64,000 nucleotides of DNA from Kalaharituber pfeilii. Taxonomy: Eukaryota > Ascomycota > Pezizomycetes > Pezizales > Pezizaceae. The notes beneath the pieces were generated by a model. The model was not told where the DNA came from and did no database searches. It saw only the letters and a list, made by a program, of their open reading frames with translations. Where the stretch lies: contig WHUZ01000042.1 in assembly GCA_015179045.1 (NCBI GenBank), forward strand, positions 310,001-374,000, read 5' to 3'. Of this stretch, positions 15,880-61,685 are shown piece after piece (position 1 is the first letter of the stretch; every line of letters begins with the position of its first letter). The translations under genes were made by a program, and so were the position numbers.

Positions 15880-15935
15880 TTTTTTTTTTTTTTTTTTTTT
15901 TTTTTTACTCCCATGCCGCCCTAGGGGCTATGGCG
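15880..15935 (-). mobile_element. Micro-insertion, family-B tail
   Basis: Minus-strand insert of 56 bp: poly(T), then CATGCCGCCCTAGGGGCTAT, then GGCG. The duplication AGATTCGGATGGC lies at 15867-15879 and 15936-15948. It sits in the presumed 3' UTR of the F-box gene. Confidence 0.85.
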
Positions 15936-15948
15936 AGATTCGGATGGC

Positions 15949-16538
15949 ATAAGTACACAGGACAGTGTGTAGGATTCAAAAGTTTATCTAGGGCCTGGGT
16001 CGTGTAGTATCGGTGACATCTTTAGCTGTACTTCTTGTGCTATATAAGGAAAGTGTACGGCCGTGCACAGCTCAATTGAGATATCTTATTGCATTGCCTT
16101 TGAGTGGACTTGTACGTTTTGAGATCTGAGGTTATGATACGCAAGCTAGCAAGTGAAAGATAATTTGAAACACATCCGCTATGATGCGATCTATTTGATT
16201 TCTTACACTTGGACATTATATTTTCATTGGCAACAGCCAACAGAGCACGGCCAACTCACCAACTCCGCAATGGTCGTAGATGCAAAAATAGAAAAAAGCG
16301 TAACCTAACAGGAAAGACAACAACTACAGTTATTATGATAATAAATGGTACGAGCTTTGAATGTACTGTACAGAACTTATGAGTCTCATTTGGTAAGTTC
16401 TGGCGCACGCTGGCGCTCTTAACTAAGGCACAGTATGCCCAACAGTAAGTCATTAAAGCGTTGGAATAGGCGTACGTACACCCAGATTCTATGCTATCTG
16501 CCACTGAGAGGCAATAAGCGTCTATTACTGGTTGCCAT
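15949..16538. other. Intergenic, no gene seen
   Basis: Unique-looking sequence between the F-box gene and the nested transposon block. Open frames are short and unconvincing. Confidence 0.45.
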
Positions 16539-16721
16539 TAAAAACGGCGTAAACAGGGGTTGAGCGGCTCAAGGGACTATGGTAGGAAACACCGAAGAAC
16601 ACGGTAACACTGAGGCACACGAATCACAGATCTGGCATGCGCTGAGGTTGTTGTTCTAGTTACAAAAAAAAGGAGCGGAAGGGCCTCTCAAAAAGTCCCC
16701 TTAGCTCACTAACAAATTTCA
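16539..16721. repeat. Split solo LTR, left half
   Basis: Nearly identical to 12193-12377 (TTAAAAACGGCG to ACAAATTTCA). The rest of the LTR is at 27691-27807. The LINE poly(T) starts immediately after it. Confidence 0.7.
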
Positions 16722-16878
16722 TTTTTTTTTTTTTTTTTTTTTTTTATTCACGTAACCCCGCATACAGGCTACCAGCCTATGGCAGGGACCCATATACCCG
16801 GGCCAGGTTTGAGACAACTAACTACGGAATCTACATACACCCTTGAGCACCCAGTGCCCTCCGCCCCCCGGTCCCCGG

Positions 16879-17849
16879 CTACCCCAGATCGAGGCAGGCA
16901 AACCAGTACTCGACCGGGTCACCTTCCACGCCTTCTTGCTTCCATCCTTTCTCCTCTAGGTCCTCCCAGGACTGCCAGGTGACATGTGCCCCATTTTTGT
17001 TCTTCCTCTGGGGCCGCTCCAGTTCTGTGCATCTGAACACCACATGCTCAGCACTCCATGCCTCACCACATGTGCATTGTACCTCCTCGCCACTGACCAT
17101 CCTCCTCCACATAGCTCCGCCTTTTCCAGTCCGCAGCCATGTGTAATTTGTGAGTGCTCTCCTGCCCCACTTCACGAATTTGCCCTTCCCAAACCCTGCA
17201 CGCCCCCTCTCCTCTTTTCTTTTTCGAACTAACTCTTGACGCAGCCCACCCTCAGTGGCCTGCCCATCATACCTCATGCCCTTGGCCCCCTCTTTGGCCA
17301 ACTCATCTGCCTTCTCATTGCCTTCTATCCCCACGTGGGCTTTGACCCATGCCAGCTTCACTGCATCCGCCTTCCTTAGCCTCCGCCGCCTCTCTGCAAT
17401 CAGCTCTATCACCCGCGCTAGGTCTGCGGTTCTTGCCTTGCCAGTTTTTCCTGCTTTCTGGACTGCACTGATAGCTGCCTGAGAGTCTGCGAGTAGTAGT
17501 ACTTTTGCACTGCCATCAACTGCTTCAAGGGCACCCCTCATTCCTGAGACCTCACCGTCCCACACAGTTGCCTTTGTGCCTACCCACCGGGACCCCTCTG
17601 ACTCACCTGCTACCACCTGCCTCCAGCACCATCCGCCACCAACACCGCCTTCCTCACTGCGGCTGCCGTCTGTAAAAATAGCCACCGAGTCACCCTTTGC
17701 CTCATTGATGGCCTTTTCCCATTTGGCTGGGGCGTCTTCCTTGCACAACTTGAGGTCAATGACCTCAATGCCTGTCTGTGGTAGGTGTACATCTCGCCCC
17801 CAGGACACTCTCTCCTCCTCATTGACCTCGAGAGTGCTGGCAATCTTTC
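16879..17849 (-). CDS. LINE-A ORF2, 3' part: RNase H and zinc knuckle
   Basis: Continues ORF2 after the Copia insertion, in the same frame once one CTTTC is removed. RNase H residues are in place: FTDGS (Asp), DGEVSGM (Glu), LLADSQAA (Asp), and WVKAHVGIEGNEKADELAKE (His, Asp). RNase H removes the RNA strand after target-primed reverse transcription. A knuckle CTCGEAWSAEHVVFRC follows, and the ORF ends 134 bp before the poly(T). No damage is seen in this part. Confidence 0.85.
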
Positions 17850-18179
17850 TGTGAAAAGGAGTACAGAGGAATAGGCTCAGAGATGTGTGTATTCAATTCT
17901 AATGATCAATCAAGAACGGGGCTTCCAGAGCCCATATATATACAAAAACTCTATAACACGAAGTTGCATACAAAACCAGTGAACAGAACAGCTAAGTATT
18001 TGGACTGCCTAATATGGAATACTCAGTCCGGAGTGTTTGGGCCATCGCGGATGTTCGGAGTGCTTAGGCCATTGCGGATGTTCGGAGTGCTTAGGCCATC
18101 GCGGATGTTCGGATGTTTTACACACTCGGACTGTTTCGCTCGGACTGTTTCGCGTGTGTTCGGCTCATGGTTTCTAACA
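17850..18179 (-). repeat. Copia 3' LTR
   Basis: 330 bp, TGTTAG..CACA on the coding strand. It carries a block of about 27 bp repeated three times (GGCCATCGCGGATGTTCGGA, with variants) at about 18040-18113, and two copies of TCGGACTGTTTCGC. Confidence 0.9.
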
Positions 18180-18309
18180 CTCCCACTCAACTGCGTGTTC
18201 CTGTTCTGATCCTGTAGCCTCCTTAAAACTCTCGATGCCTTATGCATACCTCCGTAGCAAAAACCCTATGGGAAAAAAGCTTACGTGAGAGAAAGAGTAC
18301 TACCCCAAG

Positions 18310-19143
18310 TTACCTAAATTGCTTAACTCCCATTCCTTCCATGAAGTATTCATGTTTCGTGCGTGCTAATGCTTTTGTGCAAATATCCGCTAGGTTCTCA
18401 TTGGTTTTGACATACTTGAGTGAGATTGCACCAGATTCAATGGCTTCACGGATGAAATGGTGACGGATTGCAATGTGCTTAGTCCTATCATGATGCTTAG
18501 GGTCTTTAGCTAGATCAATAGCCCCATTGTTGTCTATTCGAATAAGTTGCCCTTCATGTTGTTGATTGTTGCATCCAGTCTCCCACTTGCTCTTGATTTC
18601 ATCGAATAGCCTTCGTAGCCATATGCCTTCCTTGCAGGCCTCTGTAGCTGCCATATATTCAGCTTCGGTTGTGGAAAGAGCTCCTGTAGGCTGTTTTCTA
18701 GACTTCCAGGAGATCGCAGCACCAGCGAGGGTAAAAACATAGCCAGAGGTTGATTTGCGTGTGTCAATATCACCGGCCCAGTCAGAGTCGCTATACCCTA
18801 TAGGATGATGATAGCCTATAATCCGTTCAGTAGCTGAGCTCGAACTTGACCTTGAGCCTTGAAATAGTAGGCCATGTTGTCGGGTGTGTTGAAGATATCG
18901 AAGAACACGCTTTGCAGCTGCTAAGTGTTGAGCTGAGGGGGCAGCACTGAACTGTCCAAGTGTAGATACTGTGTAAGCTAGATCTGGCCGAGTTCCAAGC
19001 ATTGCATACATGAGCTTTCCAACAAGTGACTGGTATTGGCGTATTTCGGCTGGTGTAGGAGTAGCAGTACTATCTGTTTGTAGTCTGACATTCGAGTTGA
19101 GAGGTGGAAAGGCTCTTGCATCGATCCATGCCGAAATATACAA
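18310..19143 (-). pseudogene. Copia pol: end of RT and RNase H
   Basis: Carries YQSLVGKLMYAMLGTRPDL and LGQFSAAPSAQHLAAAKRVL (RT connection), then GYSDSDWAGDIDTRKSTSGY, ALSTTEAEYMAATEACKE and LIRIDNNGAIDLAKDP. These are the RNase H Asp, Glu and Asp sites of Ty1/Copia pol. It ends KALARTKHEYFMEGMGVKQF. It joins the RT frame only through a one-base shift near 19110, where STSQLECQT should read as STPLNSNVRLQT. Confidence 0.8.
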
Positions 19144-19924
19144 GAATACTGCTGATGTATTTAGTTTGGTGGAGCCAGATTATGCGATTTGGGCGGTCTC
19201 GAGTAATCTCAAATCCAATGAATAACTTTACTGCTCCAAGATCCTTCATGTTGTATTTGCTAGCGAGCTGCTTCTTAATTTGATCTTTGAGTGTAGGATT
19301 GAATGAAAAGATCAAGATATCGTCAACCCAGAGCAGCAGTAAAATTCCAGACATGATGTAGAGATTTGAATCCTCTGTTGAGCGCTGGAAGCCAATGGAT
19401 ATTAGATATGCATCGATGTCTGCATACCATGCTCGAGGTGCCTGTTTGAGGCCGTAGAGGGCTTTTCGGAGCTTGCAGACTTGGTTGCTGTTGGAGCTGT
19501 TGCTGAAGCCTTCGGGTAGCTCCATATACACTTCCTCATCGAGTTCAGGGTGAAGAAATGCTGTAATGACATCCATTTGATCAATATCAAGGTCATGTTC
19601 TGCAGCAATCGCCATTAGCATTCGAACAGTAGCAAACTTAGCAACTGGGGCAAAGGTTTCTTCATAGTCAACTCCTGCTCTCTGCTCATAGCCTTTAATC
19701 ACAAGGCGGGCTTTATATCTTATGCTGCCATCAGCATTCTGCTTTACTTTGTACACCCATTTGCAGCCAATCACACTCTTGCTCTCAGGTACCTGAGCTT
19801 GGTCAACAAGCTCCCATGTTTGGTTTTCTAGCAGCGAGTTAAGTTCTTCGCCCATAAGTAGCTTGCTCCCACTGAACACAGTCAGGGCTTTGCATGGCTT
19901 GCCGGTAGCTAGTCGGTTCACCAA
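19070..19924 (-). pseudogene. Copia pol: reverse transcriptase
   Basis: Motifs in order: ENQTWELV, IGCKWVYKVKQNADGSI, YKARLVIKGYEQRAGVDYEE, TFAPVAKFATVR, DIDQMDVITAFLHPELDEEV (first catalytic Asp), LYGLKQAPRAWY, and LLLLWVDDILIF (the DD pair, with WVDD in place of the usual YVDD). It makes the cDNA within the virus-like particle. It is one base out of frame with the integrase at about 19885. Confidence 0.82.
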
Positions 19925-21455
19925 TTGCCTCCTTTACTGGTCCCTGGGCTTGAAAAGCTTTTGTCATGGTATGGCCAGATCTCCACAGAGCATCTGCCAG
20001 GGCATTGAGAGCTTCAAGCCTCCCTTCGTCAGGTGTAGCTTGTAGAGTACTAGATTCTAGTGCGTGACAGCACCTAGATATCTCTTCACTTGCATCAGTA
20101 TGCACAGTGGACACGTGGATTGTGTGGTGCTTAGCCATCTGGTCGGCATTGGGGTCTTTACCAGTCATAGAACTGGTAGCTGCAGCACGCGAGCGGCGTG
20201 GGCGTTTCTCAATGATTTCTTCTCCAAGACGTAGGCGTGGTATGTCAGGCTCTGTCCGTTGAGGCATCGTGGCCGGTATCCGAGTCATAGGCAGTGTCGC
20301 ACCTGGCGTCATAGCCGGCGTCGTAGGTTCATCAGCAATCTCAGTGATTCTGTCTTCTGGCCAGATGTCAGGCATGTTAACATCCTGTAGCTCTTCTGTA
20401 CTGCAGCTGGTAGGTGCATTCAGCTGCTCAGCTGTGGTAATGCCCATTGGTTTTCTCTCGTCGAATACCACGTCAGCTACAATGTATGCCCGACGGCCTT
20501 GTGGGTCCCAAACTCGCCACTGCTTGGTTGTAGTAGGTGAATAGCCGATGAAGATGCACTGCTGTGACTTAGCTTGCATGGTACGACGCTTCTGTTTTGG
20601 GATATGTGCATAGGCGTGACATCCAAAAATGCGCAGGTGGTGCAGGGCCGGTTTCTTGCCATACCAGGCCTCATAGGGCGTTTTGTTCTCGAGAGCTCGT
20701 GTAGGTGACCTGTTCAAGATATACACAGCTGTTGCAGTAGCTTCTGCCCAGAATTCCTCATCAAGCTTAGCAGCACACCTCATAGACACTGCCATCTCCT
20801 TGATAGTCCTAATTTTTCTTTCACTGACTCCATTTTGATGCTGAGTGTAGGGTGCGCTGGGTTCATAGGAGATACCGCTGCTTGACAGAATACCTCGGAA
20901 TCTGCGGTTGTCATATTCTCCCTTGCCATTGTCACACCTGAAACGTTTGATAACTCTCCCACTTTCCTTCTCTACATGTGCTTTAAAGTCTTGAAAAGCA
21001 CTGCAGACCTCTTCAACTGTTTTGGATTCAAGGATGTATACCCATGTCATGCGTGAATAGTCATCAATGTAGAGGAGGAAGTACCTAGAGTTTCCAGGTG
21101 TGACTGGGAATGGACCAGCAGAGTCAGAGTGAATGAGTTGGAGGGGCTCAGTTGCCCTCTCAGAGGGTGTTCGATTGATTGTGACCTTCTGTTTGCCTTG
21201 CAGGCATGGAAAACAGGGACTGCCATCTTTGGATAGCTCTGCCTTTCGCAGCTCTATGCCAGTTGCAAGACCATTGGCGAGCGTCTTAACAGCAGCTGTA
21301 TTCAGGTGTCCTAGGCGGTAATGCCAGAGCTCGAGTGTACCTTTAGCCAGAACGGTGGTGGCAGGCACGGTAGCGGCAGCGGCAGGCACGGTGGTGGCAG
21401 GCACGGTGGTGGCAGCGGCAGGCACGGTGGTGGCAGGCACGGTGGTGGCAGGCAC
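19839..21455 (-). pseudogene. Copia pol: GAG-pre-integrase and integrase
   Basis: LELWHYRLGHLNTAAVKTLA and a CFPCLQGKQK zinc motif are followed by the integrase core: HSDSAGPF (Asp), RCDNGKGEYDN (Asp), and YTQHQNGVSERKIRTIKEM (Glu). C-terminal integrase motifs NKTPYEAWYGKKPALHHLRI, FGCHAY and FIGYSP follow. The frame opens in a minisatellite encoding (M)PATTVPATTVP.., where the gag-protease frame is lost. Confidence 0.82.
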
Positions 21456-22839: not shown

Positions 22840-22869
22840 TGTAGGATGATTTGATGTTTGCAGTAGTAG

Positions 22870-23044: not shown

Positions 23045-23374
23045 TGTGAAAAGGAGTACAGAGGAATAGGCTCAGAGATGTGTGTATTCAATTCTAATGA
23101 TCAATCAAGAACGGGGCTTCCAGAGCCCATATATATACAAAAACTCTATAACACGAAGTTGCATACAAAACCAGTGAACAGAACAGCTAAGTATTTGGAC
23201 TGCCTAATATGGAATACTCAGTCCGGAGTGTTTGGGCCATCGCGGATGTTCGGAGTGCTTAGGCCATTGCGGATGTTCGGAGTGCTTAGGCCATCGCGGA
23301 TGTTCGGATGTTTTACACACTCGGACTGTTTCGCTCGGACTGTTTCGCGTGTGTTCGGCTCATGGTTTCTAACA
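23045..23374 (-). repeat. Copia 5' LTR
   Basis: 330 bp. I see no difference from the LTR at 17850-18179. Confidence 0.9.
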
Positions 23375-26326
23375 CTTTCCAGCTACTGACTCAAATCCAT
23401 CATTTTTGTCTGTAGCATAACTCAAGCTAAAGTCTCTCCAGTCCCTCCCCCTTTCACCCTCTCTGTCTGGGTCTGGGGATACCATTCCAGTGAAGCTTTC
23501 CGGCCATAAATCTCCAACTCCTGTAGGGTCCCTCACTGATCTTAGTGCATATCTTGCTTGGCCTTGATCGAGAATCGTCGTTACACTCTCTACTCCAGCA
23601 ATGGCCTCGACCTTTACTCTCGCTGCCCCTCGGACTGCACCAGTGCATTTGCGGAGTGCTTGATACTGCAACTTCTCAAACTCCTCTCTCCACTGCTTCT
23701 GGCCTCTCCACCCAATTTCGGACCCCCAAAGGGCCACTGCCCTTACCATGCCTGTATAAGCCTTTCTCCATGAGATAGGACTCATACCCCATTGAGAGTT
23801 GCCTAGCCCAGACAGCGCGCCCATGAGTTTCCTGGCTTTCTCGATCCGGCTTTTCCAGTGGAGGTCGAAATCAAGAGTGCTATCACAAATCACCCCTAGC
23901 CACTTGCACCTCTCAACATCTGCTCTTCTCTTGGCCTTCTTACCCATGACTAGGACCTCCTCCTTTGAGGTCTCCAGTGGTAGATCGTGAGCTTCAGCAA
24001 CCTCCCTGAGTACTCCTGCAATTCTCTCCCCAATTCTCCTCATATCCTTTCCTCCTTCCCAATCCAGAATAACACAGTTCATATCATCTACAAATGAGGG
24101 CAGCTCCACTTCACAGTCTCTCACTGTTGTAGCTACCTTTGTTTCCATCTCTTCTAGAATTGGTGCCATGTATATGAGGAACACAACTGGGGATAAAGGC
24201 GAGCCCTGCGGCACACCTACATTCGATCTGCCATTGCCCCTCACCTGTCCATCCCATTCCACCTCAAACTCTCGCTCCCGGAAGAAGGTTTCTAACCAGG
24301 GTAACCATTTCTCAGCTTTAGAACCCTGTACTCGGTGCTTGACCATATCCCATCGTGTGTTCCCAAAGCCTCCCTTGACATCCTCCATAATCCACACTGC
24401 CCCACCGCCACGTGCCAGGGCTCTCTGGCTCTTCACAACTGCCCGAAATAAGGCATCAATTGCAGACCTTCCTCTCACTCCTCCAAACTGCCCATGGTGG
24501 AATAGTCCAGCTTCTTGCAAGTCGTCAGCAACCACCTTCTCCATCAGTTTTCCCACACAATTGATGAGTTGAATTGGCCTCCAGCTCTTTGCTTGCGTAA
24601 GGTCCCTGCCAGACTTCGGGATCATGATCACCTTGCTGAATTGCCAATCCTTCGGCATCCTGGCTGCAGCCAGCTCAGCAGCCAGCTCCTTTAATAACTG
24701 CCCTCCTAGGACTGTTTTATTGACCAGCTTGATGAATCTATAGCTGATGCCATCAGGCCCCGGAGCTGAACGGCTCGAGGTGCCTGCAAGTGCCTTGCAT
24801 AGCCTCTCAGTCAGCTTTTTTACATTGGAGGCCCATTCGTCTGTCAGGCTCTGCGGGCCCGAGTTCACTGGGAGGTCCAATGTTGTCAGGGAAATTGATG
24901 CCGCCTGTAAATTCGACGCCGCCAGCGAATTCGACACTACTGGTGAATTCGGCACTGCCGGCGAATTCGACACCGCTCGCGAATTCGATGCCGCTGGCGA
25001 ATTCGATACCGCCGGCAAATTTGGATTTGACATTGCCGGTGAATTTGATACTGCCAGTGAAGTTAATGCCGCTGGCGAGGTTGACACTGCTGGCGGATCC
25101 GACGTCGCCTGATATTTGAAGTTTCTCTGTACCAGGCCTCTCACCTTCTCCTCGTCTGTCCTCCATATATCACCATTGTCACCTACAAGGTCACCCATTT
25201 TTCCTCTTAACTTCCAAGGGTCCTTTGCTACTCGGATCACATCCCATGGGTCCTTAGAGCTGTGTTCCTCTGTAAACTGTTCCCAGCACTCCTTTTTCTT
25301 TCGTCTTATGATATACTTGAGGGTCTTAACCCGCTCTTTCCACCGTAGGAGTCTGGCTCTCTCCCATGCTTTGGCTCCCTGTCCCTTCCCCCCTCGGCCC
25401 TCCTTCCTCACTGCCTTCGCTGCCTCTTCTACCTCCTTATCCCACCACAACTTACTTCTTGATGATGCACGTATCTCCCTCTTCAGACTCTCTCGAAGCT
25501 TGCAGGTCTTCTCATATGCAGTCCCTCCTTCAAGGCTTCGGTACCACTCCCATTGTTCTGAAGCCTTCTTTTGCATGATTTCTTGGATCAAATCTTCTGC
25601 CTTATCCCAATCCACTCCTCTTCTTATTTCAGTTTTGCCTTGGCTGCTACTACAAGTCCCCCAGACTACTGCATGGTCTCCACATAGCCACTCTGGATCT
25701 TCGTTTTGCCATCCAAATTCCCCATACTTCCAGACCAGATCTAGAACACTCTCTCTGACCTGCCCTTCAACTTCTCTTGCCCATGTTGAAACTCCTTTCC
25801 TTGTTTCCAGAAGCCAGCCTGTGGCTTCCAAACCCTCTTTGAGTGCCCTTCCCCTTGGGTCAGGCCCTCTGTCTAGTTTGGACCATGCTGGATGGTGTGC
25901 ATTAAAGTCCCCCAGTAGTACTGTGCTAGACTGCAGGCCTCCTGGGCCTCTCAGCCTTCCCCATCTGTCCATCCAATCCTCCAAGGTCTCCAAATTCGTA
26001 TCTGGATGGATATATACTCCTCCCGCTCTGCCACCTCCTTCTACCTCACACCAGACCCACCATTTCGTCTCTTCAATCACTTTCCACTCCTGGGTCCCTT
26101 TCCTTGCATGAGCCACTACCCTCTTGCCACTTTCAACTCGGCTGATGACCTCATAAGCTGGATGCCTTGTTGTGACCCACTCTCCTCCTTTCTCTGCAAC
26201 CCATGCTTCTCCTATAAAGATCACATCTACTTTCTCTCTATTTGCCCATTCCAGAATAATATCACTATTTCTGAGAGAACCTCCAACATTCTGGAATGCC
26301 ACCTTCATCCTCTGTTCAGTAACCAT
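23375..26326 (-). CDS. LINE-A ORF2, 5' part: APE endonuclease and reverse transcriptase
   Basis: ATG at 26326 overlaps the ORF1 stop (ATGGTTACTGA), suggesting translation by reinitiation. The N-terminus is an exonuclease-endonuclease-phosphatase fold: MKVAFQNVGGSL, IFIGEAW, STVLLGDFNAHHPAWSK and SVLDLVW..CGDHAVVW, which would nick the target. A minisatellite-coded linker (SNSPAVSNSPA.., about 24895-25110) follows. The RT has SAPGPDGISYRFIKL, SWRPIQLINCVGKLMEKV, QFGGVRGRSAIDAL, EDVKGGFGNTRWD (first Asp), VGVPQGSPLSPVVF and PSFVDDMNC (FVDD). Copia interrupts it at SVAGK; joined to 16879-17849 it makes about 1305 codons without a stop. Confidence 0.88.
24895..25110. repeat. Minisatellite in LINE ORF2 linker
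   Basis: About 12 imperfect 15-18-bp units around GCGAATTCGACACCGC, kept in multiples of three so the ORF stays open. It encodes (A/V)SNSPA-type repeats between endonuclease and RT. Confidence 0.75.
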
Positions 26327-27690
26327 TACGTCGGAACCGCTTCCCTGCTGGCATATAGCTCGCCAGCTCTGGCCCTAGCCCTGGCCTCTTCAAAGAGTCT
26401 CTAGTAGATACAGTTGCACACTCCCTTCGCTGGTGCCCCATACCACCACACTGCCAGCACGTCCTACTGGCTGCTTTGACTCCCTGTTGTTTCTGACTTT
26501 GGTAGGCCCTCGGCGGCTGGTGTGTGCACTCTCTCTGCTGATGTCCCTTCCTGCCACACTGCCAGCATGTTCTTTCGAAGGCTGCTGCTGGTACTGATAC
26601 TGGTGTTGGTACTGGTACTAGTAGAGAGCTTGCATTTACTCCTCCTTTAGCGGGTGCAGACCCTCTCACTGCTAGTGGCTTGTAAACTTCTACCTTTCGG
26701 AGGTCATTTCCAAGCTTCACTCCCTGTTTAACTAGTCTTTCTGCTTCCTGTACACTGGTTACCTCAAACTTAACTGCTGTAGTTCTCATTGTTTGCCATG
26801 CGTTTGGGCCAACTCTCTCCGGCCATCTCGCTCCGAAAATGCCACTAGTAGTTATGTTTTCTGCTGCAAGGGCCTCATGCAGCTGCCTTCTATTAGAGAG
26901 CCCCTCTACAGGAACTCCCTTCGCGATTAGGGGAACTGTCCCTGATTGCTCAGCCCAAACATTCAGTAGGTCCCCTCCAAATACAGCCTCCAGCTGACAC
27001 TGTAGTATTCTTACTACTTCTGCTTCTTCCATCGCCCAGGGTGCTTCAATGATACGCCATCTCCTCTCATACCTCGAAACCATGGCATTCTCCTTGATAC
27101 CTACTACTCGGAAAAGCCTTCTCTTCTCCCCTCGTTCTAATGCTCGAAGAGCTGTATTTGCTGCTTCTAATTGTTTTTGTTTTGCTTCCTCTGTTGTACC
27201 TGCTGATACCTCCTTGTGTAGTGAAATCATCACCCACTTGCGCATCTTAGTAGTGCCAACTACCTGCCAGGAGCTACCCTCAGCTCTGGTTGTACCTGTT
27301 TCTGCATGTTCTGCAGCTACTCTGGCCTCCGAAGCCTTTGTAGCAGCTTCCTGTACCTCCTCTTCTGCTTTCTTTATCTCTGCAGCTGTGCTACTTTTCT
27401 TCTTTATATCATAGACTGCGAGCTCTTTTCTCTTAAGTTCCACATCTGCTTCATCAGCTGCAATTTTCGCAGCCTGTACTATGTCCAATCTTTGTTTTTC
27501 TCGATCTGCTGCCTCTTGGGCATCCTTTTCTGACTTCTTTCGTTGGGCTTGATCCTTTTCTTCTAGAGCTTTCGCTTTTGCTAAGGCCTTCTCAGCTGCT
27601 CTTCTTGCCTCAACCTCACGGTTCCTCTTCTTGACTTCCTCCTCCTTCCGTTTTGCTGCATCTTTTTCCTCGATGGAGGCAACTCCTAGC
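26316..27690 (-). CDS. LINE-A ORF1, 5'-truncated (Gag-like, two CCHC knuckles)
   Basis: The LINE part starts at GVASIEEKDAAKRKEEEVKK. Upstream codons of the open frame come from the LTR it landed in. A long charged coiled-coil-like region is followed by an RRM-like segment (MVSRYERRWRIIEAPW, AVKFEVTSVQEAERLVKQGV), then CWQCGRKGHQQREC and CWQCGGMGHQRREC. Such proteins coat element RNA. It ends GKRFRRNGY, overlapping ORF2 by 11 nt. The missing N-terminus makes this copy unable to supply full-length ORF1. Confidence 0.8.
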
Positions 27691-27807
27691 GAAAGCGTCA
27701 TATCCAAACGGGAATCCGTGTTTGTACCCATGCCGTTTGTAGTTTGCTCCATGCATACCCATTCATGCATTCCTCCGTTTATTCTATGCATCCATCCCTC
27801 TGTAACA
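27691..27807. repeat. Split solo LTR, right half
   Basis: Matches 12379-12501 (GAAAGCGTCATAT to CTGTAACA) apart from a 6-bp CCGTTT difference and one substitution. Confidence 0.7.
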
Positions 27808-27855
27808 CCATCCATACAGACGTTTTCCGTTCGCATGGTTATCTTCACATATGTT

Positions 27856-28349
27856 TTTTTTTTTTTTTTTTTTTTTTAATATCATTTAATCGCTTGCCGC
27901 CCTAAGGGCTATGGCGATGTTGTGCTAGTTACATACGAAAAAGTTAGATGTACATATCCCCTCCTCACCCCCCCTCCTCCCCCCCTCACTCCCCCAACAT
28001 TTCTATAAGAGTCCCTAGCCTGTCTCTCTCCCCTTCCCTCCTCTTCGGAGGGTTCCTCACATGCTCTTCACCCCCTGGCCACCTCCTCTTCCATACCCTA
28101 CACTCACCCAATAGATGGGCAGTCGTCTCCTCAGCTTCTCCACACCATCTGCATTCTGGCCCATCCCCTTCCCCAATCTTCCACCTCCACGACCTCAGCC
28201 CCTTCCCTCCCAGGAGCCCCGCTAGTCGGCTAACTTCCCTGCCTAACCTTTCTAATGGTCTGTACGCCAAGTCTAACCTGTTCCTCTCTTCCGCTCTCTC
28301 TCTCCTGAGCATATGTCTCTGCCCCGCCTCTGTAACCACCTCCGCCTTA
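27856..28349 (-). mobile_element. LINE family B 3' fragment with 16-bp target duplication
   Basis: Minus strand: ORF2 C-terminus, a 3' UTR of about 90 bp, the tail CGCCATAGCCCTTAGGGCGG and poly(A), appearing as poly(T) at 27856-27878. TATCTTCACATATGTT flanks it at 27840-27855 and 28350-28365. It is 494 bp, 5'-truncated. Confidence 0.88.
27986..28339 (-). pseudogene. LINE-B ORF2 C-terminus (zinc knuckle)
   Basis: Encodes EERNRLDLAYRPLERLG, AGLLGGKGLRSWRWKIGEG, the knuckle CRWCGEAEETTAHLLGEC, and the end RLGTLIEMLGE. Sister fragments are at 34347-34688 and 60640-60917. RT and RNase H are missing. Confidence 0.7.
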
Positions 28350-29249: not shown

Positions 29250-29303
29250 TCGCCATAGCCTGATAGGCGGAAAATGAAATAAAAAAAAAAAAAAAAAAAA
29301 AAA
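29250..29303 (+). mobile_element. Micro-insertion, family-B tail
   Basis: TCGCCATAGCCTGATAGGCG, then GAAAATGAAAT and 23 A, 54 bp in all. The duplication GTGCTATGGTGGT lies at 29237-29249 and 29304-29316. Confidence 0.9.
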
Positions 29304-30699: not shown

Positions 30700-30760
30700 T
30701 ACATAGCCATAGCCCATAGGGCGGCATGCGATTAATGATATATAAAAAAAAAAAAAAAAA
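30700..30760 (+). mobile_element. Micro-insertion, family-B tail
   Basis: Insert of 61 bp (GCCATAGCCCATAGGGCGGC..ATTAATGATATAT-polyA). GATCAAAGCTTT is duplicated at 30688-30699 and 30761-30772. Confidence 0.9.
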
Positions 30761-31649: not shown

Positions 31650-32296
31650 TATTAACATGGTGGTTGCGGAACCTTTCCCGGCAGGCCTGTTAGCACCGCT
31701 ATGCTATAGCGGACAGTCATTGAGACAGTCTGTGCAGTGCACACAGTCCGCATAGGCAGTTTCGAGACATCACACCGGCGCTTGTCTAGGCAAGATGGTG
31801 TAAAGGTTTGTGGCTGGACGAAGCCATAGATCTATCATCTCGAGCGGGAGACATTTTGAGGGTGTAGGGAAACACGGCTCTAGAGCTAGCCCCTCTGCTG
31901 GGAGGTCGTCAGGAATATTATAGGGCTCTCATACGAGAAGGCAGTATGGATGAGTGAATAGAGTGATTAGTGAAATGTACGCTGAGGCGGATGGAAAAAG
32001 ATGTGTGTAGATGATGATCTAAGTACATGCTCTCCAAACCATGTATTTAAGCCTCCCTCACTAGCCCTAACCTTGCCCCCCTACGTGACTGATTGGCCTG
32101 ATATCGATGCTTTCACACAGTATCTCCACTTGCTCCCTCTCTAAGGTACTAGGTGCTCACCATCAGGGCCTACCCGGAGAGGATATCAACCCACATTAAC
32201 CCATAGTTAGCTACTTGTGACAAGCCTGCCTCCGGGCTTGGAGGGTCTAGACCCAGGGGCCCTGCCATGGCGAACAGCTGCAAGCGGGGTCACGTG

Positions 32297-32356
<60 letters not shown>

Positions 32357-32445: not shown

Positions 32446-32504
32446 TTCCCTGCCATAGGCTCGTAGCTTGTACGTGGTGTTAAGTGATCAGAACAAAAAA
32501 GGCT
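32446..32504 (+). mobile_element. Micro-insertion, family-A-like tail
   Basis: TTCCCTGCCATAGGCTCGTA.. with a degraded A-rich end. The short duplication GATAGCCA lies at 32438-32445 and 32505-32512. A separate A run precedes it (32417-32436). Confidence 0.6.
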
Positions 32505-36779: not shown

Positions 36780-36832
36780 AGTCCTGCCATAGCAAGTAGC
36801 GGTAAGCGGGGATACTTGATAAAAAAAAAAAA
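36780..36832 (+). mobile_element. Micro-insertion, family-A-like tail
   Basis: 53 bp: AGTCCTGCCATAGCAAGTAG, CGGTAAGCGGGGATACTTGAT and 12 A. TACATATTGTG is duplicated at 36769-36779 and 36833-36843. Confidence 0.88.
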
Positions 36833-41169: not shown

Positions 41170-41455
41170 CAGTCTACCCTTGCTATACTGGACCTCGCTA
41201 TACCGGAAACCTTTTCTCGCCATAGCCTGTTAGGCGGCATGCGAGTAACGAAATAAAAAAAAAAAAAAGAAAATATACCGGAAACCTTGCTATACCGGAT
41301 GGCCTCTAGCTGCGACATCCATTCCCCATACAAATTGCCCTTGCTATACCGGACGCCCTAACAATTTCGGACCGGAAAGAAACCTCCAGACAAGTACCCC
41401 CTGTCTCCATACAAATAATATTTGCTATACCGGATATACTAATACTAATACATCT
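41170..41455. mobile_element. Related TIR/MITE fragment, interrupted by a micro-insertion
   Basis: Starts TA-CAGTCTACCCTTGCTATACT and carries several CTTGCTATACCGGA copies. No opposite end was found. The micro-insertion at 41214-41273 splits it. Confidence 0.45.
41214..41273 (+). mobile_element. Micro-insertion, family-B tail
   Basis: 60 bp: TTCTCGCCATAGCCTGTTAG, GCGGCATGCGAGTAACGAAAT and an A-rich end. TATACCGGAAACCTT is duplicated at 41199-41213 and 41274-41288. Confidence 0.92.
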
Positions 41456-47058: not shown

Positions 47059-47118
47059 ACCTCGCCATAGCCCATAGGGCGGCATGCGAGTAATGATATT
47101 AAAAAAAAAAAAAAAAAA
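47059..47118 (+). mobile_element. Micro-insertion, family-B tail
   Basis: 60 bp: ACCTCGCCATAGCCCATAGG.. GCGAGTAATGATATT and 18 A. TTCCAACCTTAGT is duplicated at 47046-47058 and 47119-47131. Confidence 0.92.
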
Positions 47119-47347: not shown

Positions 47348-47622
47348 GACCTGTTACGATTCCCTGCCATAGGCTGGTAGCCTGTATGCGGGGTTACGTG
47401 AATAAAAAAAAAAAAAAAAAAAAAAAGACCTGTTACGACCCCCGAAGGGAGACGAGAAGGACAAAGACACGCTGAAGGAATTGCTGGACTGGGCGGGACC
47501 ATAAACCATACACACATTTCCGCTTTCATGTTATTAAACTTTTCTCTTTCTAAATATCTCCTATGTACGTAACCTCGCCATAGCCGATAGGGCGGCAAGC
47601 GAGTAATGATATTAAAAAAAAA
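47348..47622 (+). mobile_element. LINE-B 3' fragment on plus strand
   Basis: After removing the nested micro-insertion it reads ..PPKGDEKDKDTLKELLDWAGP-stop, a 3' UTR of about 100 bp, and the tail TCGCCATAGCCGATAGGGCG with A9. Duplication not found. Confidence 0.65.
47360..47426 (+). mobile_element. Micro-insertion, family-A tail
   Basis: 67 bp: TTCCCTGCCATAGGCTGGTA, GCCTGTATGCGGGGTTACG, TGAAT and 22 A. GACCTGTTACGA is duplicated at 47348-47359 and 47427-47438. Confidence 0.92.
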
Positions 47623-47834: not shown

Positions 47835-47935
47835 CTAACCTGACCCGGGTATATGGGTCCCTGCCATAGGCGTGTAGCCTGTATGCGGGGTTACGTGCCC
47901 CCCCCCCCCCCAAAAAAAAAAAAAAAAAAAAAAAA
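47835..47935 (+). mobile_element. Micro-insertion, family-A tail with poly(C)-poly(A)
   Basis: 101 bp: 17 bp of 3' UTR-like sequence, the family-A hairpin, ACGTG, then 14 C followed by about 24 A. AAGAGGTCCTAGT is duplicated at 47822-47834 and 47936-47948. Confidence 0.9.
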
Positions 47936-48097
47936 AAGAGGTCCTAGTTTTGATGCTACCGTCCAGGCAGCCCTTCCCAGGTTCAGCCGCTTTCGGAAAT
48001 GTGAGCTGAACTTCAGTTCCTCCAGTCTACCTGTAAGCCTGCCATCGAGTGGCTACATCTGGTTCTCTGTAGGGTGGTATGAGCGGGTCAGGGGGTA

Positions 48098-48222
48098 TTT
48101 TTTTTTTTTTTTTTTTTTTTTTTTATATCATTGATCGCAGGGCGCCCTAAGGGCTATGGCGATTGTGTAGCTACATAAATAAAAGAAAGTTAAAAAACAT
48201 CACGACAGAAGCGTCTCGCCAA
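48098..48222 (-). mobile_element. Micro-insertion, LINE-B tail plus short 3' UTR
   Basis: 125 bp, minus strand: about 70 bp of 3' UTR, a hairpin reading on the plus strand as GCGCCCTAAGGGCTATGGCG, and poly(T). GGGTCAGGGGGTA is duplicated at 48085-48097 and 48223-48235. Confidence 0.9.
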
Positions 48223-48698: not shown

Positions 48699-48797
48699 CC
48701 AAGCCTGCCTCCGGGCTTTGAGGGTCTAGACCCAGGGGCCCTGCCATGGCGAACAGCTACAAGCGGGGTCACGTGAAATAAAAAAAAAAAAAAAAAA
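48699..48797 (+). mobile_element. Micro-insertion, family-A tail, longer form
   Basis: 99 bp beginning CCAAGCCTGCCTCCGGGCTT, then the same 3' UTR and hairpin as 32222-32351, with about 19 A. ATCAGGCTATAG is duplicated at 48687-48698 and 48798-48809. Confidence 0.9.
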
Positions 48798-48974
48798 ATC
48801 AGGCTATAGCAGTTAGGCGCCGCCGCCTACCACAGTGGCAACAAATTTTTCACTCAAGTATGCAAGGCATTTATTCGGAATTGGGACCGGTAGCCCGGGC
48901 CAGCCAGCACAAATATAGATTGCCCGGGCCAGTCATGGGCCAGTCATGTGTGGCCCGCTAAGATGGCTGGCCCC

Positions 48975-49830: not shown

Positions 49831-49884
49831 AATCGCCATAGCCCATAGGGCGGCATGCGATTAATGAAAGAAAAAAAAAAAAAA
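49831..49884 (+). mobile_element. Micro-insertion, family-B tail
   Basis: 54 bp: AATCGCCATAGCCCATAGGG, CGGCATGCGATTAATGAAAG and 14 A. TCTAAAGTCATG is duplicated at 49819-49830 and 49885-49896. Confidence 0.92.
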
Positions 49885-53935: not shown

Positions 53936-53945
53936 TATACTAGAA

Positions 53946-54440: not shown

Positions 54441-57400
54441 ATGGAAACATTACATTGTACCCGTTGCAAGCGAATAAGACCGATTCAGGATTTTGCACGA
54501 GCTCGAAATGGAACTTTACGAAAGACTTGCGAGTCATGCTTAGTATGTTTTTATGCTAACGGAGATATATTATATATTAAAACTAATGCAATATAGACTC
54601 GGCTACGGCATAGAAGAACTAGATTAAATACAAGAGTTGAGGCAGTAACAGCAAATAATCAACCAATATTACCTCTTGCCTTTATATCCTCTATACGACA
54701 ATGGTGTGATCTAGATTTAGGTCAAATGAATCAAGAATGTTCATTTTGCAAAGCATTACACTGGAAGGATGAGCGTATACATGGATCAAGTATAGTTACA
54801 CCTCGATTTATGGGATGCTGCAAGCAAGGAGATATACATTTAGAGCCCTTGCAACCCTTACCACCCTATCTTCATACCTTATTTCATGGAACGGATCAAA
54901 GAGCTAAAGATTTCCGTCATAATATCCGCAAATATAATACTGCACTTGCTTTTACTTCTATTAAATGTACACCTGATACCCGTTTACCTGTTATATTACG
55001 TGGAATTCAATGCTTTCAGATTCATGGCGAGTTATTTCATATGCAAGGCCCTTTATACCCTGCAGAAGATTCAGCTGCACAATATGCACAATTATATTTC
55101 TATGATCCTGAATATGCAGTACAAATTCAAGAGCAACGCCATGTTATGTTGCAAGCAGAAGTGTTACGGCAGTTGTTGGAGATAATTCGCAATGTAAATC
55201 CATTTTTTGATATATATTTGACTGCAAAAGAACGTTTAGATCTTATGCAAGATCAAAATGAGGAGGCAAGGATTATTTTAAATCCACGAATGCAGTTGAT
55301 CATAGAACATGGGTCAGATAAGCGGCGGGAGAATTTACCAACTAGCAGAGAAATTGCGGTCATTATTCCATATGAGTATGAAGCTGCAGGATACCGTGAT
55401 ATAGTGTTAGCGCACCGTAACATACTTGGTGCACATGGATTTACTACAATTAATCCAAACCATGCTGCATATATGCCATTACATTATGTTTTATTATTTC
55501 CACATGGAGAATTAGGTTAGTACTCCTCTTCAAATAATATTTTGTAGTTAATACTAAAGATTTAGGTTGGCATTGGGCATTACAGCTTGAGAATAGAGCA
55601 GGAAATCGAAGTCGCCTCCGTTTACCACAAAGAGCCTATTATCGCTATCGTTTACACTTTCGAAATACTGAGCCTGAGACTTTATTTCGAGCGCAACGAT
55701 TATTTCAGCAATATATTGTTGATGCATGGGCAGTATGCGATCAAAATAAACTGTTATGGCTCCGTAATAATCAGAGAGCAATTCGAGCAGATGTGTATAA
55801 TGGCTTAACGGATGCTTTAGGGAGGCAAGATATGGATACAAGGATGTTAGGGCATCGTATTATTCTACCAAGTAGTTTTACTGGTGGGGATCGTTATATG
55901 CAACAGTTGTTCCAAGATTCGATGGCTATTGTTCGTCATTTCGGTCGTCCTACACTTTTTATTACCTTTACAGCTAATCCGAAGTGGAAAGAGATTACAC
56001 AAGAGCTATTACCTACACAAACTGCTATAGACCGTCCAGACTTGGTTGCAAGAGTTTTTCATCTAAAGCAACAACAGTTACTGTCTGAAATCAAGCATCA
56101 ACATATTTTTGGACGTTGTATTGGTTGGGTATGGACAATTGAATATCAAAAACGGGGATTACCACATATGCATCTCTTAGTTTTTCTACATAAGGAAGAT
56201 CATTTCATATCTGCAGATCAGATTAATGAAATAATTTCGGCAGAGATTCCCACAAAAGATACACCTACCAATACGGAACTTTGGAATATAGTTACATTAA
56301 CTATGATCCATGGACCATGTGGAATACATAATCCTAATGCTCCTTGCATGACTGCAAAGTATGAAAACGGTCCGAAAACATGCTCCAAAAAATATCCACG
56401 TTCATTTCAGAAGGAAACAGTTATTCGTGAAGATGGATACCCTTTATATAGGCGACAAAATAATGGTACAACTTTTTCAGTACCATTATCAGGTGAACAA
56501 CGGGTTACAATTGATAATCAATGGATTGTACCATATAATCCATATTTATCTTGGCGCTATAAGGCACATATTAATGTGGAAGTATGTGCTACAGTCAAAG
56601 CAGTTAAGTACATCCATAAGTATATCTATAAAGGGTCAGACCGAACAACATTACAGCTCGATACGGAAGATGACGAAATTAAACGATACCTGCAAGGACG
56701 TTATATTGGCCCAACGGAAGCGATATGGCGCCTTTTCGAGTACGATATGCATGAAGAATCCCCACCGGTCATACATTTAGCAATACACCTCCCTGGTGAG
56801 CAACCAGTATACTTTGCGGAGAATGCAACAGCAGAAACCTTGGCAAACCAATTAAGTACTAGCTGTACAACATTAATGGGCTATTTTCAAGCTAATCAAG
56901 ATATGCCAAATGCCCGACAATACCTTTATCAGGAGTTTCCATCACATTTTGTATGGAATCAACCTTCACGGAAATGGACACCACGACAACGAGGCATTGC
57001 AATTGGCCGTATCTATCACTGCAATCCTTTTATGGGTGAAAAGTACTATTTACGCCTATTATTAACTGTTGTGCGAGGTGCAAAAAGCTTTGAGGAATTA
57101 CGCACTGTCCGTAATATTCAATATCCAACCTTTCGAGAGGCCTGTCAGGCATTAGGACTTCTGGAGGATGATAATGAATGGGTGGAATGTTTTACAGAGG
57201 CGTCTTTATTTGGAAACGGAGGATCGTTACGTACATTATTTGCAACAGCTCTTCTTTATGGGAATGTTACAGATCCAAAAGCTCTATGGGACCGTTTTTG
57301 CAACCATATCTGTGATGATTTGATGCTTTTTCTAAGTGAAAACTCGCATCTACTTCCACCAGATCTACAAGACTCTTTTCACTTAGATTATGGTCTATAT

Positions 57401-58945
57401 CTGATCAATCAGATGTTGCTACAGCAAGGACACTGTTTAACAAATTTCCAAATACCACTTCCGGTTCTGTAATGGAATACATTCAGTGCAAATTCCATAC
57501 TTGCAGATGAATTACAGTATAATACAGAGCAAGAGGCAACATTATATGAGCAACGGTATGAAATGCTAAATTCTGACCAGAAACATGCATTTGATACAAT
57601 TATATATGCAATAGAGAATGGTTTTCCTGCCCATTTTTTCTTACAGGGACCTGCAGGGACCGGAAAAACATTTCTCTATAATGTACTATGCAACTACCTC
57701 CGTTCTAAGGGTAAAATAGTACTTTGCGTGGCTTCATCTGGAATTGCAGCTCAATTACTTCCTGGCGGACCTACTTCACATTCCCGTTTCAAAATTCCGT
57801 TATTGTTAAACGAGTTTTCAACATGCTCCATCAAGCGCGATTCTCCTTTAGCAGCATTATTGAGAGAAACAAGCCTTATTATTTGGGATGAGGTACCTAT
57901 GCAGAATAAACGCTGCTTTGAAGCAGTTTCTCGAACACTTAATGATATTTGTGGTACTTCTGATAATGCTTTATTCGGAAATATTCCAATTATTACTGGT
58001 GGGGATTTTGCGCAAATTTTACCAGTGGTTCCGAAGGGTAATAGGGCTGCAATTGTTAATGCATGTCTTCAACGTTCCGTTTTATGGCCGCATTTTCAAC
58101 AACTCTTCTTAACTAAGAATATGCGAGTCCGTGAAGGTACAAATAATGCAGAATTCAGTTCTTGGTTAGGTCAACTATCCTATAGTCCTGAATTACGAGG
58201 TCACATTTCATTACCTTCATATATTGAGGCTGAACGGTCAATTTCGGAGTTTTGCAACCATGTATTTCCGAAAAACCTTTTGGACAGTGCACCTTTAGAC
58301 CTTAACACCTTCAATGGACGAGCAATCTTGACTTTACGGAATGATACAGTCACCGAATTTAATGAACTTCTTATTCAACATATACCAGGTGATATGCGGA
58401 CCTACTTTGCAGTTGACAACATTGATCAAAGTGAAACGGACATCGATACATATCCTGCAGAATATTTACAGACGTTAAATCTAGCTGGATTACCTCCATC
58501 CCAACTAAATCTCAAAGTTGGTGCACCAATAATTCTATTACGGAATCTAGATCCTAAGCAGGGCCTATGTAACGGAACTCGCATGACTATTACTCAACTC
58601 GGACATCGTTGTATCGAAGCGCAAATCCTTAACGGTGACTTTACAGGTCAGCGTCGCCTATTACCTCGCATCAAACTCTCAACAACAGAAGGAGAACTTC
58701 CACTTATACTGATGCGAAAGCAATTTCCTATCCGTTTATGTTTTGCAATGACAGTTAATAAGGCGCAAGGGCAGTCATTAGATGTTGTTGGAGTAGATTT
58801 ACGTATGCCTGCATTTACACATGGCCAGTTTTATGTTGCAATGTCTCGCATTACAGATGTAAATAATTTGATGGTTTTATGGTCTGAAAACGGACCCATG
58901 GTTACAGAAAATATTGTATATCCTGAGGTATTACTACAACCATAG
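54441..58945 (+). CDS. Helitron Rep/helicase (HUH endonuclease and Pif1-like), one premature stop
   Basis: Exons 54441-54542, 54597-55515 and 55566 on, through introns 54543-54596 and 55516-55565 (GT..AG). The N-terminus has a CTRCKRIRPIQDFA..CESCL zinc pair, then CSFCK..GCCKQGDI. Rep: FITFTANPKW, KRGLPHMHLLVFLH (HUH) and VKYIHKYIYKG (catalytic tyrosines). Helicase: FFLQGPAGTGKTFL (Walker A), LIIWDEVPM (Walker B), ITGGDFAQILPV, AMTVNKAQGQSLDVVG and FYVAMSRITDVNNL. A single TAA at 57470-57472 (PVL-stop-WNTFS) divides Rep from helicase in the same frame; CAA to TAA would explain it. Otherwise about 1,440 codons read through. The family transposes by a rolling-circle mechanism. Confidence 0.9.
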
Positions 58946-60060: not shown

Positions 60061-60309
60061 AAATGCCAAGCATAACGTGTCTACCTCACATCTTGTTTTA
60101 CGATAAAAATCAACAACTTCAAGCAATTGCCATATTGTGAGTTCTGATCCAATTGAGATGGTTCTTTCAGAATTGAAAAGCTGGAACGAAATAGCTCCAG
60201 ATTGTCCTATCTTTATTAAGTTTAGCTATGTGCATCATAATTAATTAGTGATGCAAAGTAAGGTAAAAACGTCTGCCGCATTTTTTAAAAGAATTAGGTT
60301 TGATCACCT

Positions 60310-60372
60310 TTTTTTTTTTTTTTTTTGTGATTACATAAGCCCACATACAGGCTACGAGCCTATGTCAGGGAT
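60310..60372 (-). mobile_element. Micro-insertion, family-A tail
   Basis: 63 bp, minus strand: CCCTGACATAGGCTCGTAGC, CTGTATGTGGGCTTATGTAA and poly(A). TTTGATCACCT is duplicated at 60299-60309 and 60373-60383. Confidence 0.9.
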
Positions 60373-60639: not shown

Positions 60640-60917
60640 GTGAGTTTAGCCCAGGAAAGGAACAGACTGGGCATGCACTACAGACGGATGCGGAGACTGG
60701 GGAGCTTCGTGTGCGCCCTGGCAGGCCTTCTGGGAGGGAAAGGCCTGATGTCCTGGAGGCACAAAGTGGGCAAGGCAGACAGTCCGGAATGCAGAAGGTG
60801 TGGAGAGGAAAAAGGAGACGGCGACACACCCGGAACCGATGCCGAGGAAGTGGCCAGGAGGGTTGGAAGCGATACACAGGCCCCCTGGTGGAATTGATGA
60901 GGTGGATAGAGAGATAA
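60640..60917 (+). pseudogene. LINE-B ORF2 C-terminus
   Basis: ERNRLGMHYRRMRRLGSFVC, AGLLGGKGLMSWRHKVGKAD and ECRRCGEEKGD parallel 27986-28339. The frame shifts, and the true end GPLVELMRWIER lies in the neighbouring frame (stop 60917). The knuckle's second half is damaged. Confidence 0.6.
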
Positions 60918-61029
60918 CTTCCACTTGGGTTTGGGCTTTCACATCCTCTTTTATTTATCTGTTTTACTTCAGTTATGTTATTTTCTTATTATCTCGTTTG
61001 TAGTTAATCTCGTCATAGTCCATAGAGCG

Positions 61030-61081
61030 TCCTGCCATGGCGAACAGCTGCATGCGGGGTCACGTGAAATAATAAAAAAAA
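61030..61081 (+). mobile_element. Micro-insertion, family-A tail inside a family-B tail
   Basis: 52 bp: TCCTGCCATGGCGAACAGCT, GCATGCGGGGTCACGTGAAA, TAATA and A-run. ATAGTCCATAGAGCG is duplicated at 61015-61029 and 61082-61096. Confidence 0.92.
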
Positions 61082-61459
61082 ATAGTCCATAGAGCGGTAT
61101 CAGTGTTCCCAATTGGCCGGTCCAGAACAATGTGAAATAATATAGCTATTTACATTACATGAGAGAATAATAGGTGGTGAAAAAAATATATGCAGTATCT
61201 GAAAGAATAATGGGGGAAATAAATACAACTGAAAAGAATGAAAGGTGGTGAGAAAACACGCGTTCGCGCGATATGTGCCTCAATCTGAAAGAATAATAAG
61301 CGGTGAAATAAATGCATGCGATATGTGACCTCAATAATAGGTGGGAGAAATAAATACACGCGAAAAAGAATAATAGGTGGTGTAATGAACAAACTCGTAC
61401 CTTACCACAGTGGATATTTGTCAGGGTTTAAAATATTAAAAAAATAAGCCTAAATGGTC

Positions 61460-61496
61460 GCCCTGCCATGGCGAAAGCTGCATGCGGGGTCACGTG

Positions 61497-61524
<28 letters not shown>
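61460..61524 (+). mobile_element. Micro-insertion, family-A tail
   Basis: 65 bp: GCCCTGCCATGGCGAAAGCT, GCATGCGGGGTCACGTG and about 28 A. AAGCCTAAATGGTC is duplicated at 61446-61459 and 61525-61538. Confidence 0.92.
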
Positions 61525-61527
<3 letters not shown>

Positions 61528-61633
61528 CCTAAATGGTCTGGACCGCCTGAAGTGTAGTCTCATACCAAGCCCCTAGGGCACTGACTGAAATTTGGCCTAA
61601 CATATCTGTATTTATAAACAATGTAATATACGT

Positions 61634-61685
61634 CTGCCATGCCGAACAGCTGCAGGCGGGGTTATGTGAAATAAAAAAAAAAAAA
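61634..61685 (+). mobile_element. Micro-insertion, family-A tail
   Basis: 52 bp: CTGCCATGCCGAACAGCTGC, AGGCGGGGTTATGTGAAAT and 13 A. TAATATACGT is duplicated at 61624-61633 and 61686-61695. Confidence 0.9.

Follow-up and report, generated by a model that had tools for sequence, protein, structure and literature searches.

The systems closest to the insertions described here include retrotransposons of the long interspersed nuclear element (LINE) type such as R2, for which a 43-nt tag was reverse transcribed as well as the 248-nt 3′ untranslated region (PMC10499050). For R2 5′ truncation, incomplete copying, template decay and early second-strand synthesis were listed as possibilities, and untemplated bases were noted on run-off (PMC2718515). 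Decay of the template at its 5′ end was posited to limit insertion and stable folds to resist it, and unstable templates were linked to truncated insertions (PMC11331408). Here, we describe micro-inserts made of little more than a LINE 3′ hairpin and poly(A) in a 64,000-nt stretch of the truffle Kalaharituber pfeilii (contig WHUZ01000042.1, positions 310,001 to 374,000; the window), which lies in a genome of 78.03 Mb and 360 contigs. Their 5′ ends were concentrated at hairpin bases in three tail families, and the view that they would be target-primed copies of short, 5′-trimmed, hairpin-protected LINE tail RNAs is one for which we see even chances.

Micro-inserts in the window

A preliminary description of the window had listed 17 inserts of 52–130 bp, each with a duplication. 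The inserts were re-derived from the sequence with a script. Sixteen of the 17 were recovered, with starts as listed to within one base (±1), duplications of 10–15 bp and duplication scores of 10 to 14.5 (Table 1); their lengths, A-run included, were 52–131 bases, one base beyond the upper limit given before. When flanks of a genome sample were swapped under settings nearly the same as those of the window script, scores ≥8.5 were reached in 1.0% and scores ≥10 in 0.26% of 1169 trials. The short A-run of the insert at 32446 kept the script from detecting it, and this insert was counted as weak because its match is 8 bp only and, by eye, four unexplained bases precede the downstream duplication copy. 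With this insert included, thirteen inserts are shorter than 70 bp, as had been reported.

Twelve of the 16 scripted inserts start within a few bases of the terminal hairpin base, which bears out the claim that most inserts stop there, although four of the 17 are longer. Two other scripted inserts (32222 and 48700) start at the foot of another hairpin farther upstream, termed hairpin A. The F2 insert at 47835–47937 ends in C14 followed by A26, an odd mixed homopolymer end; another copy, L204, has nearly the same start.

Instead of the two tails distinguished previously, at least three tail families (F1, F2 and F2′) were found. The F1 core CGCCATAGCCCNTAGGGCGGCATGCGA had 1277 perfect copies in the genome, compared with 0 for the reversed pattern, and F2 had 154. 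The F2′ pattern CCCTGCCATGGCGAACAGCT[A/G]CAAGCGGGG had 343 and 53 copies in two longer patterns and 468 in a shorter one. Additionally, a 103-base insert (L007) carries a further tail type, with hairpin A of the form AGCCTGTCTCCGGGCTT and a middle hairpin GGGC-TT-GCCC in which, compared with F2′, both partners of a pair appear to have changed.

Distribution of 5′ ends in genome samples

Insert ends were analyzed in 180 perfect-hairpin copies, comprising 60 F1, 60 F2 and 60 F2′ (20 of the CTGC and 40 of the CTAC type). These were the first listed, not a random draw, from 1277 F1, 154 F2, and 53 CTGC and 343 CTAC copies. In F1, 16 copies began at the hairpin base, 16 had a duplication elsewhere (−21 to −391; negative positions run upstream), 16 shared LINE-like upstream sequence and 12 had neither a duplication call nor shared upstream sequence. 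The corresponding numbers for F2 were 8, 2, 41 and 9. Among the CTGC copies of F2′, 13 began at the base, 1 at hairpin A and 1 elsewhere, 2 shared upstream sequence and 3 had neither; among the CTAC copies, the numbers were 32, 3, 1, 2 and 2. Two doubtful duplication calls, L100 (−114) and L151 (−428), were retained in these counts. Two of the four F2′ copies counted with shared upstream sequence (L213 and L221) coincide in place with entries of the LINE-joined list described below; the other two (L144 and L155) do not.

Altogether, 69 of the 180 copies (16 F1, 8 F2 and 45 F2′) were placed at the hairpin base by their duplications (base class), whereas swapped flanks placed the 5′ end there in 0.4%. 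Half of the called duplications of F1 (16 of 32) fell in one 12-base bin within 442 bases (3e-17 under uniformity). F1 thus shows a sharp peak mixed with ordinary truncation, F2 is two-peaked, with either the tail or a long copy, and most F2′ copies are tail only. A sharp stop at the base of the hairpin, which a smooth length distribution without a peak would have refuted according to the earlier description, was found in all three families as sampled, and smooth truncation as the whole story is ruled out in these samples by the 5′-end peak.

The same two length classes emerged from a scan blind to the hairpin, in which distinct A-runs (≥10; 95 in the window and the longer loci together) were searched for a duplication up to 200 bases upstream. 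A strong duplication was found for 38 of the 95, and 33 of these 38 contain the hairpin. When the 38 were sorted by hand, the terminal hairpin base was the start of 19 and hairpin A that of 10; 1 began at −24 as in F2, 3 farther up and 3 inside a hairpin (one doubtful), and 2 lay in tandem repeats; the hairpin A count is inflated because L159–L170 had been picked by a 75-mer.

Across the genome, F2′ patterns matched 468 perfect terminal hairpins, 77 copies with a perfect hairpin A and part of the middle, and 25 in which LINE sequence directly precedes hairpin A. A comparison of positions by hand showed that 16 of the 77 belong to the 25 LINE-joined copies as well. Because the pattern lengths differ, the ratios are approximate, with about 390 terminal-hairpin-only copies by subtraction. 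Genome-wide copy numbers of several hundred are extrapolations from pattern counts and samples.

LINE parents of the tails

The proposed LINE origin was corroborated. The window itself holds an F2 LINE with two open reading frames (ORFs) and a separate RNase H part upstream of the F2 tail (Table 1); the PF03372 match in its ORF2 scored 24.0 bits, just below the cut-off of 24.5. By eye, frames at about 18310–23016 look Copia-type (integrase, reverse transcriptase and RNase H) and lie inside the F2 LINE, splitting its RNase H part from ORF2. A genome search with ORF2 of this LINE gave 7 matches, all distant. In domain order and in its CCHC ORF1, the F2 LINE resembles Tad-like fungal LINEs, and it may belong to the Tad1 clade.

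For F2′, RNase H or ORF2 pieces 42–65% identical to those of F2 were found upstream of the CTAC tail at L164, L165 and L233 (L233 overlaps L165), and about 80 bases of this upstream sequence are also present at L170. Copies joined to LINE sequence were not seen in the CTGC type of F2′. Upstream of the F1 tail, an RNase H fragment of 32% identity (E 1e-5) was found at one locus, L231, and an ORF1-like fragment was recognized by eye at L232. These fragments give an incomplete picture of the autonomous parent of F1. Thirty reverse-transcriptase loci (L009–L038) had none of these tails by strict pattern and provided no link from F1 to a reverse transcriptase. Judged by the adjoining coding sequence, the tails belong to LINEs, clearly in F2 and F2′ and less surely in F1.

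ORF1-like fragments, identified by eye, stand directly before an F1 tail with no reverse transcriptase between at window 12871–13770 (tail at about 13870) and at L232:5864–6343 (tail at about 6449). The window fragment had no Pfam match. An ORF1-like fragment with an F1 tail is possibly a non-autonomous, ORF1-only derivative.

The inserts also bear the hallmarks of LINE integration. The 69 base-class inserts had duplications of 9–17 bp with a mode of 13. A poly(A) tail forms the 3′ end, a detectable A-run being missing in 2 of the first 40 F2 copies, and the 3′ end is the same as that of a LINE with coding capacity in F2 (the window LINE) and in F2′ CTAC (L164/L165/L233), the case for F1 being the weakest. 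A pyrimidine preceded the duplication in 60 of the 69 base-class inserts and in 21 of 24 longer inserts; the absence of A at this position is partly an effect of duplication calling, but the scarcity of G is not. The micro-inserts are target-primed, LINE-derived insertions with a target preference similar to that of longer copies.

The reported absence of an internal promoter was upheld for the RNA polymerase III B box, which was not found in any of five typed tail units even when one mismatch was allowed, but an exact A-box-like match was present in F1, the only one among these units. In the window, no Rfam match at the gathering score and no tRNA gene were found.

Exact 5′ ends and junction bases

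The modal start of F1 was −2, seen in 8 of the 16 base-class inserts. The stem reaches the same base, the predicted pairing probability of the terminal base rising from 0.06 at −3 to 0.81 at −2. The pair −2/+28 was standard in all 44 copies outside the base class (C-G 22, A-T 21 and T-A 1) and in 14 of the 16 base-class copies (A-T 10, C-G 4 and non-pairs 2).

Pairing in F2′ begins with the G at −1. Twenty-one of the 45 base-class inserts started there, 11 more were compatible with this start because the duplication shares the bases, 12 extended further and 1 had another base. Nine of the 12 extensions mismatched the parent (at −2, seven T and two C); L181, with an imprecise duplication, is among the nine. 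F2′ has another discrete end at the hairpin A base, to which called duplications assigned 4 of the 60 sampled copies. Among the 12 top matches to the 75-mer, 8 had a strong duplication at the hairpin A base, L161 had one by eye and 3 shared further upstream sequence.

The mean folding energy upstream of F1 was −1.65 kcal/mol, compared with −6.36 kcal/mol for flanks (n = 44 and 69), and that upstream of hairpin A was 0.0 (one parent sequence). In these folding predictions, the RNA lying above F1 or hairpin A is implausible as a block. By eye, the loop CCTC of F2′ hairpin A could pair with GAGG just downstream (e.g., window 32222–32250), which would form an H-type pseudoknot at the second 5′ end.

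Origin of the tail-only insertions

The preliminary description had offered abortive LINE copying or a short tail RNA as explanations. The evidence leans towards short RNAs as templates, because the inserts end at the 5′ side of two F2′ hairpins, including the second end at hairpin A, because the RNA above F1 and hairpin A is unstructured, and because the extra F2′ bases are mostly non-parental, as untemplated bases would be. LINE RNA would be trimmed from its 5′ side, by a 5′-to-3′ exonuclease or a single-strand endonuclease, until the nuclease is blocked at the hairpin, probably with a LINE protein bound there. The leftover, in which some ten linker bases separate the hairpin from poly(A), would retain what the reverse transcriptase needs and could be inserted. 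The enzyme would run off the 5′ end of this leftover, at times adding one or two untemplated bases. A reverse transcriptase moves 3′ to 5′ and meets the 3′ side of the hairpin first, so that a structural pause should leave the linker only; ends at the 5′ foot thus point to an agent that works from the 5′ direction, or to an enzyme that loses its hairpin anchor once copying is done. Duplications, poly(A), target preference, family-specific tails and ends at the 5′ foot were all observed, and we infer that the template RNA itself ended at the hairpin foot. With slightly less than even confidence, we further suggest that decay leftovers of LINE RNA, hairpin plus poly(A), may be the smallest natural retroposon template, that hairpin feet would fix the lengths, and that the main genomic product of F2′ would be its own tail (~37 or ~75 bases, very roughly 95% of copies by pattern counts).

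Several observations weigh against trimming. The F1, F2 and F2′ tails look like plain hairpins, and the plain 3′-terminal stem-loop of dengue virus did not resist Xrn1 in an assay, resistance needing special folds (PMC3968743). Trimming alone does not account for the many tails of F2′ and the few of F2 (8 of 60). Of the 51 F2′ inserts for which a duplication was called, none started at the small middle hairpin (predicted 5′ base −17/−16). F1 inserts truncated elsewhere showed no excess of starts at stem bases (0.54, n = 15) over shifted controls (0.49, n = 124), so structure-bound ends are not a general rule. The perfect-match sampling patterns kept copies cut inside the hairpin out of the main sample, and the hairpin-blind scan shows up to three such copies. 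Moreover, 3 of the 12 F2′ extensions match the template, as chance would give, and L070, L092 and L096 of F1, as read by eye, carry one to three further upstream bases that resemble the parent.

These parent-like junctions, three each in F1 and F2′, also speak for abortive target-primed reverse transcription, in which the enzyme, working on a long LINE RNA and bound to its 3′ hairpin, drops off once the hairpin is copied and the anchor lost, like RNA polymerase in abortive initiation. Such copying accounts for stops, in all three families, exactly where the recognition hairpin ends, and for the presence in F1 and F2 of both tails and long copies that carry a tail of the same type. A region of a zebrafish LINE protein binds its cognate 3′ stem-loop (PMC4176376), and a pause at the F2′ middle hairpin (−4.9 kcal/mol), just upstream of the stop, is possible. 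However, the second discrete F2′ end is not predicted, the untemplated bases at 9 of 12 extended junctions better fit run-off, the RNA upstream of F1 is unstructured, and a structural pause should halt at the 3′ side of the hairpin, as proposed for Magnaporthe template switches (PMC2104539). We regard abortive copying as a possible but doubtful source. An independent tiny retroposon appears improbable. Its tail RNA (~37 or 75 bases) would be the product of its own gene, copied in trans by LINE proteins as a promoterless, SINE-like parasite (SINE, short interspersed nuclear element). The excess of F2′ terminal hairpins over LINE-joined copies (~468 to 25, with patterns of different length), the two discrete F2′ forms, the A-box-like match of F1 and the lack of a LINE-joined CTGC copy would suit it. 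Micro-inserts arise from more than one LINE family, each with a tail of its own, which disfavours such a retroposon and rules out a single source lineage of tails: micro-inserts of F1, F2 and F2′ each have a different tail that is also found on longer copies, including both F1 stem types, and the CTAC tail of the commonest micro-inserts is also that of the three F2′ copies in which the upstream sequence is longer. The results for the B box, Rfam and tRNA genes also stand against it. That the inserts are ordinary random 5′ truncations, and that biased sampling or chance duplications created the excess at the hairpin base, is very hard to credit. F1 does show a broad spread (16 of 60), but the peak is far above the uniform model and swapped flanks, the latter ruling out chance duplications, and half of the strong duplications in the hairpin-blind scan lie at the terminal hairpin base, with the second group at hairpin A (hand-sorted, and partly picked by the 75-mer).

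Other features of the window

A bestrophin gene occurs twice in the genome, at 7146–8030 of the window and at C317:504773–505645, and the last exons of the two are 91% alike at the protein level. The window gene is 91% identical across 290 residues to the public bestrophin-like protein of K. pfeilii, whereas this protein is 100% identical to contig C317 of the same genome in the last exon and 88–95% identical in its other pieces, read without introns. Thus, the window copy is, by sequence comparison, very probably a diverged duplicate within one genome.

The G+C content of window 52001–54000 is just 31%. A sequence at about 53858 resembles, by eye, an F1 tail in which C has become T and G has become A, the pattern expected from repeat-induced point mutation. 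Frames at 54597–58945 resemble, by eye, a Helitron replicase and a PIF1-like helicase.

Table 1. F2 LINE parts and tail inserts in the window (positions count from the first base of the window)
Feature	Position	Strand	Length or start	Duplication	Pfam match or detection
F2 LINE ORF1 (zinc knuckle)	26316..27875	-			PF00098
F2 LINE ORF2, endonuclease + reverse transcriptase	23369..26374	-			PF14529, PF03372, PF00078
F2 LINE RNase H part	16879..17892	-			PF00075
F2 LINE 3′ hairpin + poly(A), source type of F2 micro-inserts	16722..16783	-			
F1 micro-insert	15880..15935	-	56 bases, start at hairpin base	GCCATCCGAATCT	script
F1 micro-insert, degenerate hairpin	29250..29303	+	54 bases	GTGCTATGGTGGT	script
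F1 micro-insert	30700..30760	+	61 bases	GATCAAAGCTTT	script
F2′ insert from base of hairpin A (AAGCC...GGGCTT)	32222..32352	+	131 bases, A56 tail	AGCTACTTGTGAC	script
F2-like micro-insert, weakest listed	32446..32500	+	~55 bases	GATAGCCA (8 bp)	by eye; script missed
F2/F2′-like micro-insert	36780..36832	+	53 bases	ATACATATTGTG	script
F1 micro-insert	41214..41268	+	55 bases	TATACCGGAAACCTT	script
F1 micro-insert	47059..47118	+	60 bases	TTCCAACCTTAGT	script
F2 micro-insert	47360..47426	+	67 bases	GACCTGTTACGA	script
F2 insert	47835..47937	+	start 24 bases upstream of terminal hairpin	AAGAGGTCCTAGT	script
F1 insert	48098..48222	-	125 bases, start ~60 bases upstream of hairpin	TACCCCCTGACCC	script
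F2′ insert from hairpin A base, one extra base	48700..48798	+	99 bases	ATCAGGCTATAGC	script
F1 micro-insert	49831..49884	+	54 bases	TCTAAAGTCATG	script
F2 micro-insert	60309..60372	-	64 bases	AGGTGATCAAA	script
F2′ micro-insert	61030..61082	+	53 bases	ATAGTCCATAGAGCG	script
F2′ micro-insert	61460..61526	+	67 bases	AAGCCTAAATGGTC	script
F2′ micro-insert	61634..61685	+	52 bases	TAATATACGT	script

Comparison with known systems

In searches of an open-access library, no listed title or abstract opening described quantised tail-only LINE insertions. The tail-only insertions are a form of LINE 5′ truncation. They share poly(A), a 3′ hairpin, truncation from the 5′ side and duplications (9–17 bp here) with the 5′-truncated copies of stringent-type LINEs, which are non-long-terminal-repeat elements, and the F2 LINE has ORF1, endonuclease, reverse transcriptase and RNase H. 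Unlike in those LINEs, the lengths are quantised, with many ends at hairpin bases, and one family is mostly tail-only. With many ends quantised at RNA structures, the cause of 5′ truncation becomes testable, since the models can be told apart by end position, by untemplated bases and by the two-hairpin F2′ family.

The MINE chimeras of Magnaporthe, attributed to template switching, likewise involve a fungal LINE reverse transcriptase and breakpoints near predicted hairpins, as described in PMC2104539. In MINE, the breakpoint was proposed to result from a pause before the hairpin and joins two RNAs, whereas the truffle end lies beyond the hairpin and joins target DNA. The same source describes Mg-SINE, a SINE whose 3′ end is like that of the LINE MGL and which, as in the truffle, forms short non-autonomous copies. 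In contrast to SINEs, the truffle tails were found without a B box, have no body upstream and measure ~37–80 bases before poly(A). Flavivirus subgenomic RNA (sfRNA) is also a 3′ RNA fragment from blocked 5′-to-3′ decay, an analogy whose truffle side is proposed from sequence.

The insect R1/R2 elements and the engineered R2 tag offer a further likeness: a structured tag of 43 nt suffices for target-primed copying in vitro, untemplated bases are added on run-off and truncation is tied to unstable templates (PMC2718515, PMC10499050, PMC11331408). R2 differs in being site-specific and in using another endonuclease. Its tag is man-made, whereas truffle tags of that size insert naturally; the micro-inserts thus provide natural examples of a tag of about 40 bases sufficing for insertion, as shown for R2 with the engineered one.

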